Both the position numbers and the translations under genes were made by a program. A stretch of 64,000 nt of DNA, from assembly GCA_024280775.1 (NCBI GenBank), contig JAJRPM010000013.1, forward strand, positions 248,001-312,000, in the 5' to 3' direction. Numbering within the stretch: the first letter of the stretch is position 1; every line of letters begins with the position of its first letter. Of the stretch, positions 10,635-22,322 are shown piece by piece. Under the pieces are notes generated by a model. The model was not told the origin of the DNA, did no database searches, and saw only the letters and a list, made by a program, of their open reading frames with translations. This DNA comes from Candidatus Zixiibacteriota bacterium (GTDB lineage: Bacteria > Zixibacteria > MSB-5A5 > GN15 > JACZUZ01).

Positions 10635-10680
10635 ACTGGAAAGGGGGCTCTGGTTTCGCCCTCTGTCTTTCCCGCGCAGA

Positions 10681-10865
10681 GGCCTGTTGATAAACCTCGG
10701 TTGAGTTGCGTCTGGTCCTTCGACGACGTTTTCTGCCGTCGTAAGACCTGACGCTTTCTGCCGTCGTAAGACCTGACGCTTTCTCTCGAGAGAAGTGTCG
10801 GGTCCTGATTTTCGCTTTGCGAATATTGAGACCCGACACAACAAACAGGACTTTATCAACAAGCC
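10681..10865. repeat. Composite palindromic element, family B, with internal tandem duplication
   Basis: Ends GGCCTGTTGATAAA and TTTATCAACAAGCC form terminal inverted repeats. Inside are two palindromic modules: a GCGTCTGGTC/GACCTGACGC module in which a 25-bp stretch is repeated exactly head to tail (10730-10754 and 10755-10779), and the 45-bp GTGTCGGGTC/GACCCGACAC module (10795-10839) that also occurs in ispE. A second copy of the whole element lies at 59479-59637. About 185 bp, no coding capacity of note; it is adjacent to family D and E repeats in the ispE/multicopper oxidase divergent intergenic region (10481-11150). Confidence 0.8.
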
Positions 10866-10938
10866 CGCAGGCGGGAATCCAGACAGGTAACGAGAACACT
10901 AATACAAACTCGACTGGATGCCCGCCTCCGCGGGCAAG
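10863..10938. repeat. Palindromic intergenic repeat, family E (CTGGAT-CCCGCC type)
   Basis: CCCGCAGGCGGGAATCCAG (10864-10882) faces CTGGATGCCCGCCTCCGCGG (from 10914), near-perfect inverted arms around ~31 bp. This sequence type (CTGGATTCCCGCC...CGGG) is a common dispersed palindrome in many bacterial genomes. The remaining DNA to 11150 holds the upstream region of the multicopper oxidase gene, with no clear promoter. Confidence 0.7.
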
Positions 10939-11150: not shown

Positions 11151-12368
11151 ATGAAACGAAGGGACTTTATGGCGCTGACAGGTAGTGTCGCCGCTGGCGC
11201 TGTCGGCATGGCGGCTCTGGGGGCTACACCTCTATTGGCTCAAACTGGTGTGGTAGCTCCAAAACGCTTTCCAAAAACGTTGAAGCCAACCATCTTTGGA
11301 GATACGAAAGAGTTCAAACTCTACATAGACATCACTCGTCAGGAGCTCGCTCCCGGCATGGTTATTCATACATTGGCATTCAACGGCTCTGTTCCGGGCC
11401 CTGAAATCCGGGTCAAGCGTGGCGACAAAGTACGAGTTCTCTTTGAGAACCGAACCGAATTGAATCACACAATTCACTGGCATGGAATGTATGTGCCCTG
11501 GCGCATGGATGGAGTGCCATATGTCACACAAATGCCGGTGATGCCCGGTGAGACTTTTGTCTATGAATTTGAAGCGCAACCCTATGGAACACATTTCTAT
11601 CATTGTCATTGGGGGACGCTTTTGCATATGCAAGCCGGCATGTACGGTAGTCTAATTGTCGAGGATGATGACGACCCAATCAAGAAGCGCTTTGATTATG
11701 ACAGGGAATACACACTGGTCTATTCGGCGCATGATGTGAATTTCTTGCGCGAAGAGCTAAATGGGATGCTTGATAGGATGAAAGAGCGCAGATACCTGAT
11801 GAAAAACGGACGGTTCGACGCCAAGAGGTTTTCGCTCTTTGATTCAAAGGAGGAATTGAAAAACGCAATAGAGGAAGGTTACCAACCACCCTACCTCACC
11901 AATCGTCGCTCCTCAGCGCGACTTCCACAACCAAATTGGTTCACCGTAAACGGCAGTTCATATCCAAATACACCCAATTTGGCAATACGTTCGGGAGAAA
12001 ATATCCGGGTGAGACTTATCAACGCCGGAACCGAAGAACATTATCTCCATCTTCACGGACACGATTTTTGGCTGGTATGTGATGATGGTATACCTTTGTC
12101 ACAACCGCAGCAGATGAACACTTTGCGGCTCAGTCCAGGGAAGACATTGGACATGGTGATTGAAGGCACGAATCGGGGTCTGTGGACTTTCCATGATCAT
12201 GATACTCGCAGAGTAACCAATAACGGGCTTTACCCGGGCGGTAACTTGTTGGTTTTGGCCTATGAAGATCTGCCGGATGAAGAGCGTGTGGTTAATCCTA
12301 TGGGCGGAATGAAAATGGATAAGATGGCAAAGATGAATATGCTTCCGAAGGTGGCCCTTGATGAATAA
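11151..12368 (+). CDS. Tat-exported multicopper oxidase, two cupredoxin domains
   Basis: 405 residues from ATG 11151, SD GGGGAAG. The N-terminus MKRRDFMALTGSVAAGAVGM is a twin-arginine signal, with cleavage near LLAQ. Domain 1 (about residues 50-175) has HTIHWHGM (H109, H111) and HFYHCHWGTLLHMQAGM. The latter supplies trinuclear-site His and a full type-1 set (C152, H159, M164, with H106). Domain 2 carries HLHGHDF and TFHDHD, where the usual Cys of HCH is Asp. So the type-1 copper appears to lie in domain 1, as in nitrite-reductase-like two-domain multicopper oxidases. Likely periplasmic oxidation of a metal or organic substrate. The C-terminus is Met-rich (MGGMKMDKMAKMNM), as in copper-handling oxidases. 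Its stop overlaps the next start. Confidence 0.9.
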   Translation: MKRRDFMALTGSVAAGAVGMAALGATPLLAQTGVVAPKRFPKTLKPTIFGDTKEFKLYIDITRQELAPGMVIHTLAFNGSVPGPEIRVKRGDKVRVLFENRTELNHTIHWHGMYVPWRMDGVPYVTQMPVMPGETFVYEFEAQPYGTHFYHCHWGTLLHMQAGMYGSLIVEDDDDPIKKRFDYDREYTLVYSAHDVNFLREELNGMLDRMKERRYLMKNGRFDAKRFSLFDSKEELKNAIEEGYQPPYLTNRRSSARLPQPNWFTVNGSSYPNTPNLAIRSGENIRVRLINAGTEEHYLHLHGHDFWLVCDDGIPLSQPQQMNTLRLSPGKTLDMVIEGTNRGLWTFHDHDTRRVTNNGLYPGGNLLVLAYEDLPDEERVVNPMGGMKMDKMAKMNMLPKVALDE

Positions 12369-13572
12369 TAAATACCTATTAAAAGGAATTCGATTTACCG
12401 TAGCCACTTGTTTATCGATAATAGCGCTAACTGCAACCGACATTCATGGCCAGGTAACTCCTGAATTTGGTATGGCGGCGCGTGGTGTTTTCTCTGGAAA
12501 CTTTGAGGATAGAAATTCAGGCTCACATTCAGCGGTAAGTGATTTTTCCGACTCAGGTCTGTTACTGGGCTTACGGCAAAAACTCTACAGCAATTGGCGG
12601 AGTCGTTTTGTCATGGGAATGCAATTCCCTGACGCCGATTCTGAACTTGGGCAAGTATTCTATCATCAGGTATTCATACAAGTAGAGAATTTACATAACA
12701 TCATTAAGTTCGGACGTTCTCGTGTCAAAGGCTCTTTAATTGAGTTTCCTACTTTACGTGATGATGACGCTTTGCGTTTTACGGAAAAATTGAATCCATT
12801 TGCCACAGGCAAAAATACCGAAGATAGCCAGTATGGCAATGTATTGGAATATACTCGCATATTTGGAAAACGCGTATGGTTGACTGCGCATGGAGAACAC
12901 TATGCTGAATCTGTTTTTTCCATGCCGAATCAGGTAGATGAGTTTGGATTGAATTCCGCCGGAGTCAATTTGGAGTATCGTGTTCCTGCTTCACAGCGTT
13001 GGAATCGCGGTCTGATTCAATACATAGGTGTTGCGGTAAATGCGTTCTTCCTTGAGGATAGACATCTTGGCCCCGAGCGTAGTGAAACGCTGATAAATGT
13101 CATAGCCGCTACCATTATCAACATACACCCCGATCCAGTGAATTTTTGGGACTTCAGGGTTCAGGGTAGTTTTACAAATGGACTAACGGGCATGAAGCGT
13201 TTGCGTAATGAAGTTGACTTGGCCCGGGCGCAATCATCAGCAATATATGCGTCTCTGCGCTATCTCCGCAGGACTCTGGAGAGGCCGTCTATTCAGGTAA
13301 CTTTATCCGGCGGATACAAAATCTATCCTGAGCTATACAATAGCTCGCATCAAGTTCAAGTCACTGGAAACGTGGCAGTGCGAATTGGTGATGGACTTGA
13401 TCTGGTGACACAAGCGCTATACGAAAAGCGAAATGGGCAGGTAAGAAATTTTCTCGGTGAGGACAGGTTCCGTTTCCAGATTGGCTTTGTCTACAGCCTT
13501 GAACAGATATTCAACTCCCAGTTTGGAGATCGCGGTTCATTGTTGAATCTGGAGCACGACTACATTCCCTAG
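12361..13572 (+). CDS. Putative outer-membrane beta-barrel protein coupled to the multicopper oxidase
   Basis: About 403 residues from ATG 12361, which overlaps the oxidase stop by 8 bp; AAGGTGG 6 nt upstream is a strong SD, so translation is coupled. A signal peptide (IRFTVATCLSIIALTATDIHG) is followed by alternating hydrophobic/polar strands with aromatic girdle residues throughout, for example LYSNWRSRFVMGMQF, RVWLTAHGEHYAES and DRFRFQIGFVYSLEQIF. There is no soluble domain. I do not recognise a named family. By context it probably works with the exported oxidase, perhaps as a porin or a surface platform for copper or another metal. That role is inference from the gene overlap only. Confidence 0.75.
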   Translation: MNNKYLLKGIRFTVATCLSIIALTATDIHGQVTPEFGMAARGVFSGNFEDRNSGSHSAVSDFSDSGLLLGLRQKLYSNWRSRFVMGMQFPDADSELGQVFYHQVFIQVENLHNIIKFGRSRVKGSLIEFPTLRDDDALRFTEKLNPFATGKNTEDSQYGNVLEYTRIFGKRVWLTAHGEHYAESVFSMPNQVDEFGLNSAGVNLEYRVPASQRWNRGLIQYIGVAVNAFFLEDRHLGPERSETLINVIAATIINIHPDPVNFWDFRVQGSFTNGLTGMKRLRNEVDLARAQSSAIYASLRYLRRTLERPSIQVTLSGGYKIYPELYNSSHQVQVTGNVAVRIGDGLDLVTQALYEKRNGQVRNFLGEDRFRFQIGFVYSLEQIFNSQFGDRGSLLNLEHDYIP

Positions 13573-13613: not shown

Positions 13614-13677
13614 CGTTTTATGCTGAATCTTGGGCGGGTAAACCCCGCCCATATGGTTTCTGAATTTGGGTTTAGCA

Positions 13678-13769
13678 GTCATTGCGAGCGGAGCGCGGCA
13701 ATCTCGTTGATTCATTGGGCGCATTCGAATCCACGGGATTGCCGCGTCGCTGGCGCTTCTCGCAATGAC
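13678..13769. repeat. Palindromic intergenic repeat, family C (GTCATTGCGAG type)
   Basis: GTCATTGCGAG (13678-13688) and CTCGCAATGAC (13759-13769) are perfect inverted ends. Inner arms GCGGCAATCTCG and GGGATTGCCGCG are near-complementary. This GTCATTGCGAG...CTCGCAATGAC palindrome type is widespread in unrelated bacterial genomes. It lies in the 13573-14130 intergenic stretch, which otherwise holds a small GGGCGGG hairpin at about 13632-13650, the groEL terminator, and ~230 bp in which I see nothing. Confidence 0.8.
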
Positions 13770-13828
13770 AAATTATGCGAACATGGTATCATGCTTGTTG
13801 CAACGTTCCGAAAAAACCGCAAGCCAAC

Positions 13829-18296: not shown

Positions 18297-18839
18297 CTAC
18301 TCCATCACCTGATACAGCTTCCCGTCCTCTACATCATAGATCAACGGCGCGAACAGGATTTCTGTGTAGCGCCTGCGCAGGAGCTGGCATTGGTTAATTA
18401 TTAGCTGAACCGGGTCGGTGAACGAATGCGTCGGCGCCTGACTCTCGAAATATTCCTTGGCGCTTTGGCGACTCCAGCCGGATTGGCTTAATCCTTCGAC
18501 GAATTTATCTGGATCATCGGTTATCTTGGTCATCGCACAATCGGTATGACCAATTATCGCCACAGCTCGAATGCCTCCCAACGCCACCGCGGTGGCCAAG
18601 CCAAATTCAGAATCCAGCAAATTCGCGCCCGGGGTGCGGATGATGAAGGTATATCTTGCTGGAATATTCAGCTTTATCCGATAATCCATGCAAGTGCAAA
18701 TCAGCAATTCCGGACGCTCGTATTCCCGCATCACTACTCCGAGATTATGCGAAGACAATAGACTGGCTATTGGAGTCCCCTGCAATTCCGGGGAAATGTC
18801 ATCTTCTTTGGTAACTGTTTTTAGTTTATCTGAGCTCAT
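18297..18839 (-). CDS. Beta-class carbonic anhydrase family protein
   Basis: 180 residues. The beta-carbonic anhydrase zinc ligands are all visible: C50-x-D52-x-R54 in ICTCMDYRI and H98-x-x-C101 in IIGHTDCAM. The D/R dyad that controls the zinc site is intact. The family segment FIIRTPGANLLDSEFGLATA with VALGGIRAVAIIGHTDC fits the core fold. Such enzymes interconvert CO2 and bicarbonate in the cytoplasm, though this short form could also use another substrate such as COS or CS2. The stop is near the family A repeat, and the 5' side faces the narK gene divergently (294 bp gap). Confidence 0.88.
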   Translation of the reverse strand: MSSDKLKTVTKEDDISPELQGTPIASLLSSHNLGVVMREYERPELLICTCMDYRIKLNIPARYTFIIRTPGANLLDSEFGLATAVALGGIRAVAIIGHTDCAMTKITDDPDKFVEGLSQSGWSRQSAKEYFESQAPTHSFTDPVQLIINQCQLLRRRYTEILFAPLIYDVEDGKLYQVME

Positions 18840-18958: not shown

Positions 18959-19133
18959 TTGATTATCATTGCTAATGTGGGAATCGATAGTTTTACGAAA
19001 CACGAATGTTGACCGACCACAGATTGAGAGATATTGAGATTAGCTCGCGACATCGCTTCGAACGATAAGGTTAAAGTTCCATGAAGGTCAAGAGCAAAGG
19101 GATGAAAATCATTCATTATTGAGGAAGCGCATC

Positions 19134-20636
19134 ATGACCGAGAAAGGTAAAAGAATAACAGTTTTGACGATGAACACTCTGGCGTTCACAGTGTGTTTCG
19201 CTAGTTGGATGATGAATGGTGTTTTGATAACCTTTCTTGTCGATAACGGCATTTACGATTGGAACAAGGTGGAAATGGGATGGCTCTTCGGAATTCCGGT
19301 TCTCAGCGGCGCCCTTCTTCGGCTACCTATCGGGATACTCACCGATAAATATGGTGGCCGTGTTGTTTACGCGGTCGTTATGATTCTCGCCGCAATTCCC
19401 ATGTATTTGATGAGCGTAGTAGATAGTTATTGGGCATTTTTCTTTGCCAGCCTAGGATTCGGATTGGCGGGCGCGTCCTTTGCCGTCGGAATTGCATATA
19501 CGTCAGTATGGTTTGACAAGGAGCATCAGGGTACAGCGCTGGGGATTTTCGGAGCGGGCAATGCCGGCGCGGCGCTAACTAGCATGTTTGCGCCCCAATT
19601 GTTGGCATCGTTGACGGACGGTGGCAACAATCTCGATGGGTGGAGGACTTTGCCGATAATCTATTCAATATCGCTTGTTGTAATGACCGCGATTTTCTTA
19701 CTATTTACATACTATAAACGCGCCGATGATTCTCACATCAAGAGTTTCAGCGATAGGTTGGAGCCATTGAGACGCGTACGAGTTTGGCGTTTCGGTCTCT
19801 ACTATTTTCTAGTCTTCGGAGGTTTCGTAGCGCTCGCTCAATGGCTCATTCCGTATTATGTCAATGCGTATTCGATGACGGTTGCAACAGCCGGATTCAT
19901 GGCGGCCATTTTCAGTTTTCCCTCCGGTGTAGTTCGAGCCTTCGGTGGATACTTATCTGACAAATGGGGAGCGCGCAAGGTAATGTATCTTGTTCTAGGA
20001 ACCTGTTTAGTTGCCAGCGTTCTGCTTATAGTCCCGCAAATGGATATTGAATCACCCGGAAAGGGCGTCATGTCAAGCAAATCCGGCACAGTTACTGCCG
20101 TTGATGATTCAGAGATTTCCGTAGACGGAGTTTCCTATTCTCTGATCACTCGAAACGGTGAAACTCTGACCGATGAAGAACGTCGCACCGGTGTTTTAGT
20201 GTGGCCTAGAAGTGGTAGATGGCAGGAACCGGTCGTCAAAGTCGGCGATCAGGTTCGAAAGAAACAACTACTGGCTAGAGGTGTTACACACATCTATTTT
20301 CAAGCGAACGTTTGGATATTCACTGCCTTGGTGTTCGTAATTGGTTTCATGATGGGAATAGGCAAGGCCGCCGTCTATAAACACATTCCAGATTACTTCC
20401 CGCGTGACATTGGTGTCGTCGGAGGAATTGTCGGAGTCCTGGGAGGTCTAGGAGGATTCTTCTTTCCTATACTCTTCGGGTACATGCTTGAGTCAACCGG
20501 AATCTGGACTACTAGCTGGATGTTTTTCGCATTGCTATCCGCGGTATGCCTCTGGTGGATGCATTCGGTGATTCAAAAGATGCTCCGAAAGGAAGCGCCG
20601 AAAGTCGCCACCGACATCGAACACAGCAGGGGCTAG
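19134..20636 (+). CDS. narK: NarK-type nitrate/nitrite MFS transporter with a soluble insertion
   Basis: About 500 residues from ATG 19134 (SD GAGGAAG, spacing ~6-9); TTG 19119 is a weaker alternative. Twelve-helix major facilitator of the nitrate/nitrite porter family. The first conserved stretch is AFTVCFASWMMNGVLITFLV, and the nitrate signature regions are GFGLAGASFAVGIAYTSVWF with GIFGAGNAGAALTS and the later GIGKAAVYKHIPDYFP. Between helices ~8 and 9 there is an insertion of about 80 residues (SKSGTVTAVDDSEISVDGVS through VVKVGDQVRKKQLLARGVTH) resembling a small beta-barrel. Followed 72 bp later by a second NarK-type gene. No nitrate reductase is in the window, so the physiological role (uptake for respiration or assimilation) is open. 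Confidence 0.9.
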   Translation: MTEKGKRITVLTMNTLAFTVCFASWMMNGVLITFLVDNGIYDWNKVEMGWLFGIPVLSGALLRLPIGILTDKYGGRVVYAVVMILAAIPMYLMSVVDSYWAFFFASLGFGLAGASFAVGIAYTSVWFDKEHQGTALGIFGAGNAGAALTSMFAPQLLASLTDGGNNLDGWRTLPIIYSISLVVMTAIFLLFTYYKRADDSHIKSFSDRLEPLRRVRVWRFGLYYFLVFGGFVALAQWLIPYYVNAYSMTVATAGFMAAIFSFPSGVVRAFGGYLSDKWGARKVMYLVLGTCLVASVLLIVPQMDIESPGKGVMSSKSGTVTAVDDSEISVDGVSYSLITRNGETLTDEERRTGVLVWPRSGRWQEPVVKVGDQVRKKQLLARGVTHIYFQANVWIFTALVFVIGFMMGIGKAAVYKHIPDYFPRDIGVVGGIVGVLGGLGGFFFPILFGYMLESTGIWTTSWMFFALLSAVCLWWMHSVIQKMLRKEAPKVATDIEHSRG

Positions 20637-20708
20637 CTCTCATCATCAAAATAGGATCCGTCAATGGCCGAACATATTGGAGTCATAGCAAGATAAAAGG
20701 AATCATAC

Positions 20709-22322
20709 ATGAAGACGCTCACAAGATGGGATGTAGAGGACAATCAATTCTGGGAGAGTACAGGCAAAAAAATTGCCAACCGTAATCTTTGGGTTTCTAT
20801 TCCAAATCTTCTACTAGGTTTTGCAGTATGGATTTATTGGGGTGTAATTGTTGGCCTGATGCAAGGCGTTCACGATGTGAATCCGGTCCTATTTGCCTTT
20901 AGCTGGGGAAATGACGGCGTTCCGTTGACCGGCAATGCATACCGCGCCTTGCTCTATACTCTTCCGGCGGTCGCTGGACTCTCGGGAGCGACACTGCGCA
21001 TTCCTAATTCATTTATGATTGCGATTTGCGGTGGACGAAATGTGAAATTCATGACGACCCTGCTGATGATTCTACCAGCCCTGGGAGCCGGATTCGCTCT
21101 TCAGGCGCCGGACACCGGCTTTGGAACCTTCATCATCCTCGCGGCGCTCTCAGGAATCGGCGGTGGAGCATTTGCCTCGTCTATGTCCAACATAAGTTTC
21201 TTCTTCCCCAAACGTATGCAGGGTCTGTCACTGGGGCTAAACGCTGGAATTGGCAACCTGGGCGTGGCTGTCATGCAGGTCACAATCCCGCTGATTATCA
21301 CCGTTGGTGTTTTTGGTGGAGAGTCCAGTATTCTCAAAGGCAGTCCAATTTGGCTTCACAACGCAGCGTTTGTCTGGGTTCCAGTGCTGGCGTTCTTTGC
21401 TATCCTGGCATTCTTCTTCATGAACAATTTGCCACAGCACAAATGCGGCCCAACGCCGATTGCAATCGGCAAATATCTCTGGCTCCAATTCTTGGGTTTC
21501 GCTGGAGCGGCGATTGGTATCTATCTCCTCATAATATCATGGGGTTCATTTCCCGTACTGCTGAAGATCTTTGTGATATTGGTAGTTGCGGTAGTTTGCA
21601 CCTTACTTTTTATGCGTTATTTAACTCCCAAAGCCACCAAGCAAAGTTTGATTAGTCAGTTTGATATTTTCAGCGACAAGCACAATTGGATAATGACCTG
21701 GCTCTATGTAATGACATTTGGCTCATTCATCGGCTATGCCAACGCCTTCCCGAAACTTCTCAAAGACGTATTCGGCTATATTCGAGTTGGCGCCGACGGA
21801 CTACCATTGGCTGAGTCAATCGTAAATCCTAATGCGCCGAATATTTTGGCTTTTGCGTTCCTGGGAGCCGCGATGGGCGCGGCTATTCGACCTGTGGGCG
21901 GATGGCTCTCTGACAAGCTAGGTGGAGCGCGAGTTACCCATTGGGATACAATTGTCATGATTATCTCGGCGGTTGCCTGTGGTTACACTATTAGCCTGGC
22001 GAATTCTTCGCCGACTCCCGAGACATACTTTTGGCCGTTCCTACTGTTGTTTACCTTGTTGTTTGCTACTACAGGTATAGGAAATGGCTCAACGTTCCGC
22101 ATGATTGCGGTTATTTTCGACAAAGAGAAAGCCGGTCCGGTTCTAGGATGGACCTCGGCGATTGCCGCCTATGGCGCATTCTTAATCCCGAAGATTTTCG
22201 CTACCCAGATTAAGGCCGGAACTCCTGAGAATGCGCTTTATGGATTCGCGGTGTACTATCTTACTTGTCTAGCTGTCAACTGGTGGTTCTACGCGCGCAA
22301 GAATGCGGAGATTTCCTGTTAG
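20709..22322 (+). CDS. Second NarK-type nitrate/nitrite MFS transporter
   Basis: 537 residues from ATG 20709, SD AAAGGA. Nitrate/nitrite porter family again but a different subtype: GNAYRALLYTLPAVAGLSGA, ATLRIPNSFMIAICGGRNVK, GIGGGAFASSMSNISFFFPK and GLSLGLNAGIGNLGVAVMQ in the N-half, FGSFIGYANAFPKLL and GAAIRPVGGWLSDKLGGARV in the C-half. This matches the NarK2-like, probably nitrate/nitrite exchange, type that is often paired or fused with a NarK1-like protein, as here. Likely co-transcribed with the upstream narK. It ends near a half copy of the family A repeat and converges on the FAD-domain gene. Confidence 0.9.
   Translation: MKTLTRWDVEDNQFWESTGKKIANRNLWVSIPNLLLGFAVWIYWGVIVGLMQGVHDVNPVLFAFSWGNDGVPLTGNAYRALLYTLPAVAGLSGATLRIPNSFMIAICGGRNVKFMTTLLMILPALGAGFALQAPDTGFGTFIILAALSGIGGGAFASSMSNISFFFPKRMQGLSLGLNAGIGNLGVAVMQVTIPLIITVGVFGGESSILKGSPIWLHNAAFVWVPVLAFFAILAFFFMNNLPQHKCGPTPIAIGKYLWLQFLGFAGAAIGIYLLIISWGSFPVLLKIFVILVVAVVCTLLFMRYLTPKATKQSLISQFDIFSDKHNWIMTWLYVMTFGSFIGYANAFPKLLKDVFGYIRVGADGLPLAESIVNPNAPNILAFAFLGAAMGAAIRPVGGWLSDKLGGARVTHWDTIVMIISAVACGYTISLANSSPTPETYFWPFLLLFTLLFATTGIGNGSTFRMIAVIFDKEKAGPVLGWTSAIAAYGAFLIPKIFATQIKAGTPENALYGFAVYYLTCLAVNWWFYARKNAEISC

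Follow-up and report, generated by a model that had tools for sequence, protein, structure and literature searches.

What job does a two-domain multicopper oxidase do when its gene runs into that of an outer-membrane barrel? The question is posed by two plus-strand genes at positions 11,151 to 13,572 of a 64,000-nucleotide stretch of DNA from a Candidatus Zixiibacteriota bacterium (contig JAJRPM010000013.1), the whole of which is called the window here. An original prediction, made from the sequence alone, had described an oxidase of the type-C arrangement overlapping an unrecognised barrel, and had proposed a dedicated export or surface system, perhaps for metal oxidation. To our knowledge, type-C two-domain oxidases are known by their structures while little is known of their physiology. 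We find that the two genes form an obligate module, and we propose that the pair probably acts in copper defence with the logic of PcoAB. The kinds of component were known already; the arrangement is a new variation on a known theme.

The oxidase and its copper ligands

The first gene (11151..12368, plus strand, stop codon included) encodes a protein of 405 residues that matches the Pfam families Cu-oxidase_3 at residues 73-173 (E 3.4e-39) and Cu-oxidase_2 at residues 260-350 (E 1.7e-24). Its closest PDB relatives by sequence are 2zwn (E 6.9e-57) and 3g5w (E 3.3e-56), both covering the two domains and both also matched by a profile search; we take these to be type-C oxidases, namely the metagenomic mgLAC and the BCO of Nitrosomonas europaea. 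All of the ligand motifs align with both structures, and the assignment of such positions to type-1, type-2 and type-3 copper (T1, T2 and T3) is established knowledge for the family. In domain 1, the motif LNHTIHWHG supplies H106 to T1 and H109 and H111 to the trinuclear site (11466..11483; histidine in 43 of 45 aligned rows, the other two being gapped), and YHCH (H151-C152-H153), followed by H159 and M164, supplies the Cys, His and Met of T1 together with two T3 histidines (11601..11642; 44 of 45 rows, one gapped). In domain 2, HxxHxHGH (H297, H300, H302 and H304; 12039..12062) aligns with trinuclear-site histidines and a presumed relic of a T1 histidine, while H348-D349-H350 (12192..12200; 45 of 45 rows) carries T3 histidines on either side of an aspartate that replaces the lost T1 cysteine, as HDH likewise does in 2zwn and 3g5w. 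All eight trinuclear-site histidines are conserved (H109, H111, H151, H153, H300, H302, H348 and H350), and across the 45 aligned oxidases the ligand positions are invariant except for one H297 to Y, one H304 to T and gaps in truncated copies. Given this near-invariance, the ligand pattern read from the alignment is not due to chance.

Type C is defined by a T1 site in the N-terminal domain (PMC13151041). Because H106, C152, H159 and M164 fall on the domain-1 T1 positions of solved structures, we assign T1 to domain 1 and class the protein, by alignment, as a type-C two-domain multicopper oxidase with a putative degenerate T1 site (H297/D349) in domain 2. The T1 site in domain 1 and HDH in domain 2 had both been proposed beforehand, and both hold. 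Ligand geometry was not read from the AlphaFold2 (AF2) model of the oxidase, which is poor: built on 43 aligned rows (43 of the 45, omitting L030 and L049), it has a mean predicted local distance difference test (pLDDT) of 58 and a predicted template modelling score (pTM) of 0.50. Two other identities were rejected. Against the PcoA/CopA model TIGR01480 (593 positions) the oxidase scores 145.4 bits, with a cut-off of 478.95, and against the copper nitrite reductase model TIGR02376 it scores 96.6 bits, with a cut-off of 296.3; it retains the histidine pairs of both HCH and HDH.

Three further segments of the oxidase are conserved. The N-terminus (MKRRDFMALTGSVAAG..., 11151..11240, extent approximate) resembles a twin-arginine signal, with R3, R4 and F6 each kept in at least 90% of the 43 aligned rows, and the NCBIfam twin-arginine translocation (Tat) model TIGR01409 gives 10.8 bits only, under its cut-off of 16.7. 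At the other end lies the tail LPKVALDE (12342..12365), in which P399, L403 and D404 are invariant over the same rows and L398, A402 and E405 are kept in at least 90%. Between the domains, the stretch at residues 184-261 is 77 residues long; 2zwn has 26 residues there and 3g5w about 22, so that these alignments give an insert of roughly 51-55 residues. Within the ~51-residue insert is a Met-rich helix (residues 203-220, 11757..11810) that averages 21.3% methionine among the homologues, against 4.2% in the domain 1 core and 1.5% in the other domain core. Its methionines form a ladder: M206 and M210 are each present in 44 of 45 rows, M217 in 38 and M214 in 35. The window protein has M206, M210 and M217, and M214 is found in most homologues.

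The barrel and its constant partner

The second gene (12361..13572, plus strand, stop codon included) encodes 403 residues from an ATG at 12361, or 404 from a TTG at 12358, and so overlaps the oxidase gene by 8 nt (12361-12368) or 11 nt, respectively. The direct overlap noticed originally is thus real in the window, and it is not conserved: besides the window, only 6 of 44 homologous loci (L007, L011, L013, L014, L022 and L028) offer an overlapping in-frame ATG, and all six have a further in-frame ATG downstream. Translational overlap was accordingly rejected as a family trait.

That the barrel would be an unrecognised one is borne out. It matches no Pfam or NCBIfam family at E<=1, nor does its profile retrieve any PDB sequence at that threshold; within its family, stray weak matches to Porin_4 (E 0.0019 at best) occur in 3 of 44 members, the window barrel not among them. 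It represents a conserved protein family with no counterpart in the versions of Pfam and NCBIfam used here. The AF2 model, built on 44 of 45 rows (L049 omitted), has 16 strands, a pLDDT of 80 and a pTM of 0.76. In fold comparison it gives Z scores of about 23-24 over ~280-320 aligned residues to OprB, OmpT, OprO, OmpC and Omp32, the top matches being 4gey (Z 24.3, root-mean-square deviation 3.6, 319 aligned) and then 6ehf and 4rjw (both Z 24.1). Because of these Z scores to porins, the barrel is predicted to have the general-porin fold. General porins are trimeric, and their constriction loop L3 sits between strands 5 and 6. The corresponding loop of the model (residues 121-158, 12721..12834) contains the invariant LRDDDA; 12 of its 38 columns are invariant, D134-D136 among them, and its charge averages -5.0 over the family. 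Past the last strand there is a conserved periplasmic tail (residues 385-403, 13513..13569), in which 8 of 19 positions are invariant; no other segment of at least 10 residues reaches its mean identity of 0.91. Identity with PcoB/CopB was rejected, since PF05275 is found neither in the window barrel nor in any of the 44 members and the model has 16 strands versus 12. No PcoB structure is among the 50 matches listed in either fold list, which by itself proves nothing.

The original prediction of a dedicated export or surface system thus fares unevenly. Functional coupling of the oxidase to the barrel stands. Export through the barrel, or a place at the surface, is unsupported because the twin-arginine-like N-terminus indicates a periplasmic location, and a folded oxidase would not fit through the channel of a 16-strand porin.

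The two genes are always found together. In a scan of genome contigs the oxidase lies directly upstream of the barrel, on the same strand, at 44 of 44 barrel loci, so that barrel homologues lacking the oxidase, sought as a challenge to the proposed pairing, did not appear. Record titles place these loci in Zixiibacteriota, Calditrichota, Marinimicrobia, KSB1, Nitrospirota, Bacteroidetes, Chlorobiota, Poribacteria and others. The scan relied on two peptide patterns and misses barrels that have neither, a limit from which profile searches of whole phyla are free. Among 132 genomes of the window's phylum such a search found the barrel in 7, and an oxidase of over 760 bits in precisely those; 7 further genomes have remote, partial oxidase matches only (at most 102 bits). 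The phylum of L010 was covered by 40 genomes; an oxidase of at least 720 bits is present in 12, and the barrel adjoins it in all 12. Over both searches (172 genomes), all 19 genomes with a full-length oxidase have an adjoining barrel, and each of seven genomes searched whole has a single oxidase of at least 681 bits. Genomes are shared among these counts (the 44 loci, the two phylum searches and the whole-genome searches), which are not independent evidence. Altogether, the oxidase and barrel form an obligate module.

Pairwise distances among the oxidases track those among the barrels: over 42 pairs r is 0.86, and none of 2000 permutations exceeds 0.45. On the barrel tree the phylum labels change 13 times for 9 groups, where 8 is the minimum possible; transfer of the pair between phyla is likely, though bins may be mislabelled. 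Three truncated copies (L030, L035 and L049) were excluded from the correlation, the label count and the methionine fractions; at L049:7096-8396 the barrel extends past the available sequence and the oxidase open reading frame (ORF) has no N-terminal part. Closer to the window, a genome of the same genus carries both genes (barrel 75% identical, oxidase 95% identical), and the barrel of L007, also from Candidatus Zixiibacteriota, is 75% identical. A plasmid or phage origin was rejected: the barrel has no match in 72,556 plasmid and 50,697 phage records, and the oxidase has only remote plasmid relatives, all below 60% identity.

Probable copper handling and competing explanations

The flanks of the pair vary between loci, and copper and heavy-metal genes recur in them. 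P-type ATPases are among them: 14 ORFs lie near the pair in 12 of 44 loci (389 kb of flank) where 0.43 would be expected, an enrichment of about 33-fold. The background for this expectation is 16 of the 44 genomes (58.9 Mb, 65 matches). These were hand-picked, several for having ATPases at the locus, so the estimate is conservative. The count near the pair relied on the DKTGT motif and the background on PF00122, one of the 65 background matches being under the family cut-off. Five of the 14 have a CPC motif and five CPH, and the ATPase of L016 bears YHS and HMBD metal-binding domains. In the same-genus genome a CPC-type ATPase lies downstream of the pair, with what appears by eye to be a two-component system. 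YHS proteins and additional multicopper oxidases are also recurrent, as are a DUF302 cluster (10 loci) and a DUF5676 cluster (7 loci), these two families each being read from one representative.

We consider it reasonably probable that the pair is a PcoAB-like copper-defence module, in which periplasmic oxidation of Cu(I) is coupled to a copper-conducting porin. We reach this reading because the logic is the same with a different oxidase class and barrel, and because none of the 132 genomes searched in the window's phylum has a match to PF05275, the PcoB family (a control match was found in Caulobacter). By analogy, the PcoAB logic is most likely built here from other parts, a two-domain oxidase standing in for PcoA and a 16-strand porin for the 12-strand PcoB. 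The Tat route would carry the oxidase into the periplasm, where the enzyme may take Cu(I) on a Met-rich helix that probably lies beside T1 and turn it into less toxic Cu(II). O2 would then receive the electrons at a trinuclear site lying between subunits. The partner porin would conduct Cu(II) by way of its acidic constriction loop; we infer this direction of copper movement, as we do the Cu(I) substrate. The periplasmic tail of the porin probably keeps the oxidase in place at the mouth of the channel. Bacterial two-domain oxidases are described as trimeric (PMC13151041). Since both kinds of protein form trimers, one can tentatively imagine, purely as an idea and as a doubtful one, that an oxidase trimer docks symmetrically onto the periplasmic side of a 16-strand porin trimer, that the porin tail and the VALDE tail of the oxidase form the joint, and that Cu(II) passes directly into the channel, which would make this a second PcoAB-like machine in several phyla outside Proteobacteria.

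Several observations weigh against this copper reading. The window pair is not beside copper genes; its neighbours look, by eye, like housekeeping genes, and the three P-type ATPases of the genome are on other contigs. Elsewhere an ATPase is seen in the flank of only 12 of 44 loci, many contigs being short, and the motif of 4 among the 14 ATPases is SPC or APC rather than CPC or CPH. The strand 5-6 loop, so acidic on average, has a charge of only -1 in the window protein, and the oxidase model is too poor for placing the Met-rich helix at the T1 copper. Finally, a c-type cytochrome is near the pair in 7 of 44 loci, and copper detoxification needs none.

One alternative is copper acquisition, in which the porin would import Cu(II) and the oxidase would load or store periplasmic copper for cuproenzymes. 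Copper-importing outer-membrane proteins have been described, namely RopAe (PMC6011978) and OprC (PMC8610252), and PcoB has itself been argued to be an importer (PMC9210255). The Met-rich insert and the neighbouring CPC- and CPH-type ATPases suit an excess of copper better, and we regard acquisition as unlikely. 

The cytochromes lead to another proposal, a porin-oxidase conduit in which the barrel gives the oxidase access to extracellular Fe(II) or Mn(II) and a cytochrome chain is coupled to it. He et al. put forward, as a hypothesis, a role in Fe(II) oxidation for a porin-multicopper oxidase pair, PcoAB (PMC5566968), and in the present loci a Haem_bd gene lies 3' of the barrel in L034, L043 and L044, a monohaem cytochrome c near the pair in L008, L016 and L033, and an MtrC/F-like protein with five CxxCH motifs upstream in L039. 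By the same CxxCH motif, 37 of 44 loci have no cytochrome close to the pair within the span examined, and just 1 of 44 has a multihaem one (a lone CxxCH in the ATPase of L040 was left out of the count); the ORFs adjoining the pair in the window include no multihaem cytochrome gene. P-type ATPases are enriched around the pair, and the predicted general-porin fold also argues against a conduit, since porin-cytochrome complexes use a larger, cytochrome-filled barrel. With cytochromes near only 7 of 44 loci, an electron conduit was rejected as the general function; electron transfer is largely unsupported, and we hold the conduit to be improbable. The metal oxidation first suggested for the pair is probably correct as such; an extracellular Fe/Mn version of it is not favoured, since the genes around the loci suggest that copper is what is handled.

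A laccase-like role, with phenols or other organic substrates entering through the porin, is very unlikely: the closest structure, 2zwn, is named a two-domain type laccase and porins pass small solutes, but no plainly aromatic-catabolic family is among the 19 distinct neighbour representatives scanned, and in CueO a Met-rich cover over T1 is described as limiting bulky organics (PMC6155172). Co-inheritance by transfer alone, with no mechanistic connection, we judge equally remote: the labels do not track phyla cleanly, which speaks for it, but the pair never separates even though its flanks vary widely.

If the PcoAB-like reading holds, an oxidase plus a barrel would be a recurrent answer to periplasmic copper, and the pair would be a second system for asking what the barrel does in such partnerships, be it import, export or docking. 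The strict porin partner and the copper islands give type-C oxidases a testable job.

Some flanking genes deserve record in their own right. The Haem_bd cytochrome genes 3' of the barrel belong to three Zixiibacteriota loci (L034:9183-9800, L043:9194-9787 and L044:9211-9783) and perhaps encode a third subunit; PF14376 was found on the corresponding haem-binding gene of L003. The MtrC/MtrF-like protein lies directly upstream of the pair at L039:5359-6594. A second, different multicopper oxidase is directly 3' of the barrel at L033:9263-10327 and L037:4380-5954. Three Nitrospirota loci have beside the pair a YHS-plus-HD protein, possibly a metal-sensing signalling enzyme (L048:8802-9671, L040:2301-3200 and L041:490-1371; domains by Pfam scan in L048 and by similarity in the other two). 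A fusion of a flavin adenine dinucleotide (FAD) oxidoreductase and a methyltransferase is directly 3' of the barrel at L019:6924-8777 and L023:3853-5724, and these loci have a gene with a lycopene-cyclase domain upstream of the oxidase (domains by Pfam on L023 and L025). 

In the window, the flanks are unlike those of the same-genus genome. Inverted repeats are present upstream of the oxidase (10669-10877), and a dispersed palindromic repeat with inverted arms (CATTGCGAGCGNAGCGNGGCAATCTC) is found just 3' of the barrel (13675-13770), so the pair lies between repeat elements; the CATTGCGAGCGNAGCGNGGCAATCTC pattern has 16 exact matches in the genome, and its reversed control 0. Further along are a presumed carbonic-anhydrase-like ORF (18297-18839) and, near it, two adjacent membrane transporters that we take, by eye, to resemble nitrate/nitrite transporters (19119-22322).

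Comparison with known systems

Titles and abstracts of the open-licence PMC papers searched gave no description of a porin that partners a type-C oxidase, and the known systems each resemble the pair in part. The oxidase shares with 2zwn and 3g5w its two cupredoxin domains, the T1 ligands of domain 1, the HDH of domain 2 and the same eight trinuclear histidines; unlike them it has the extended inter-domain insert with its Met-ladder helix, an LPxVALDE tail and a dedicated porin partner. CueO, in which the T1 copper is in domain 3 and for which no barrel partner is known, offers a proposed analogy in its Met-rich helical insert adjoining the T1-bearing domain. It differs in having three domains with the Met-rich region in domain 3, where 42 residues near T1 are described as giving cuprous oxidase activity (PMC6155172).

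The barrel is like the general 16-strand porins (OmpF/OmpC, OmpT, Omp32, OprB and OprO) in predicted fold, strand count and long strand 5-6 loop, and unlike them in sequence (7-14% identity in the listed matches), in having no Pfam porin match and in its conserved 19-residue tail past the last strand. RopAe of Rhizobium etli is likewise a porin-like outer-membrane protein tied to copper movement; the available part of PMC6011978 treats it as a copper-uptake porin of the Porin_2 family (PF02530) and mentions no oxidase partner.

The closest parallel is with PcoA-PcoB and CopA-CopB of Proteobacteria. There too, a periplasmic multicopper oxidase and an outer-membrane barrel are encoded by adjacent genes in copper-resistance surroundings, the oxidase is Met-rich and the barrel never occurs without it. 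PcoB is described as a 12-stranded barrel with an electronegative pore, always accompanied by PcoA (PMC9210255). The parts differ: PcoA belongs to the TIGR01480 family, for which the two-domain window oxidase scores 145 bits versus 479, and PcoB has 12 strands and PF05275, whereas the window barrel has 16 predicted strands and no match to that family. The pairing is also stricter, for PcoA sometimes occurs without a barrel whereas here, in 172 genomes of two phyla, a full-length oxidase never does.

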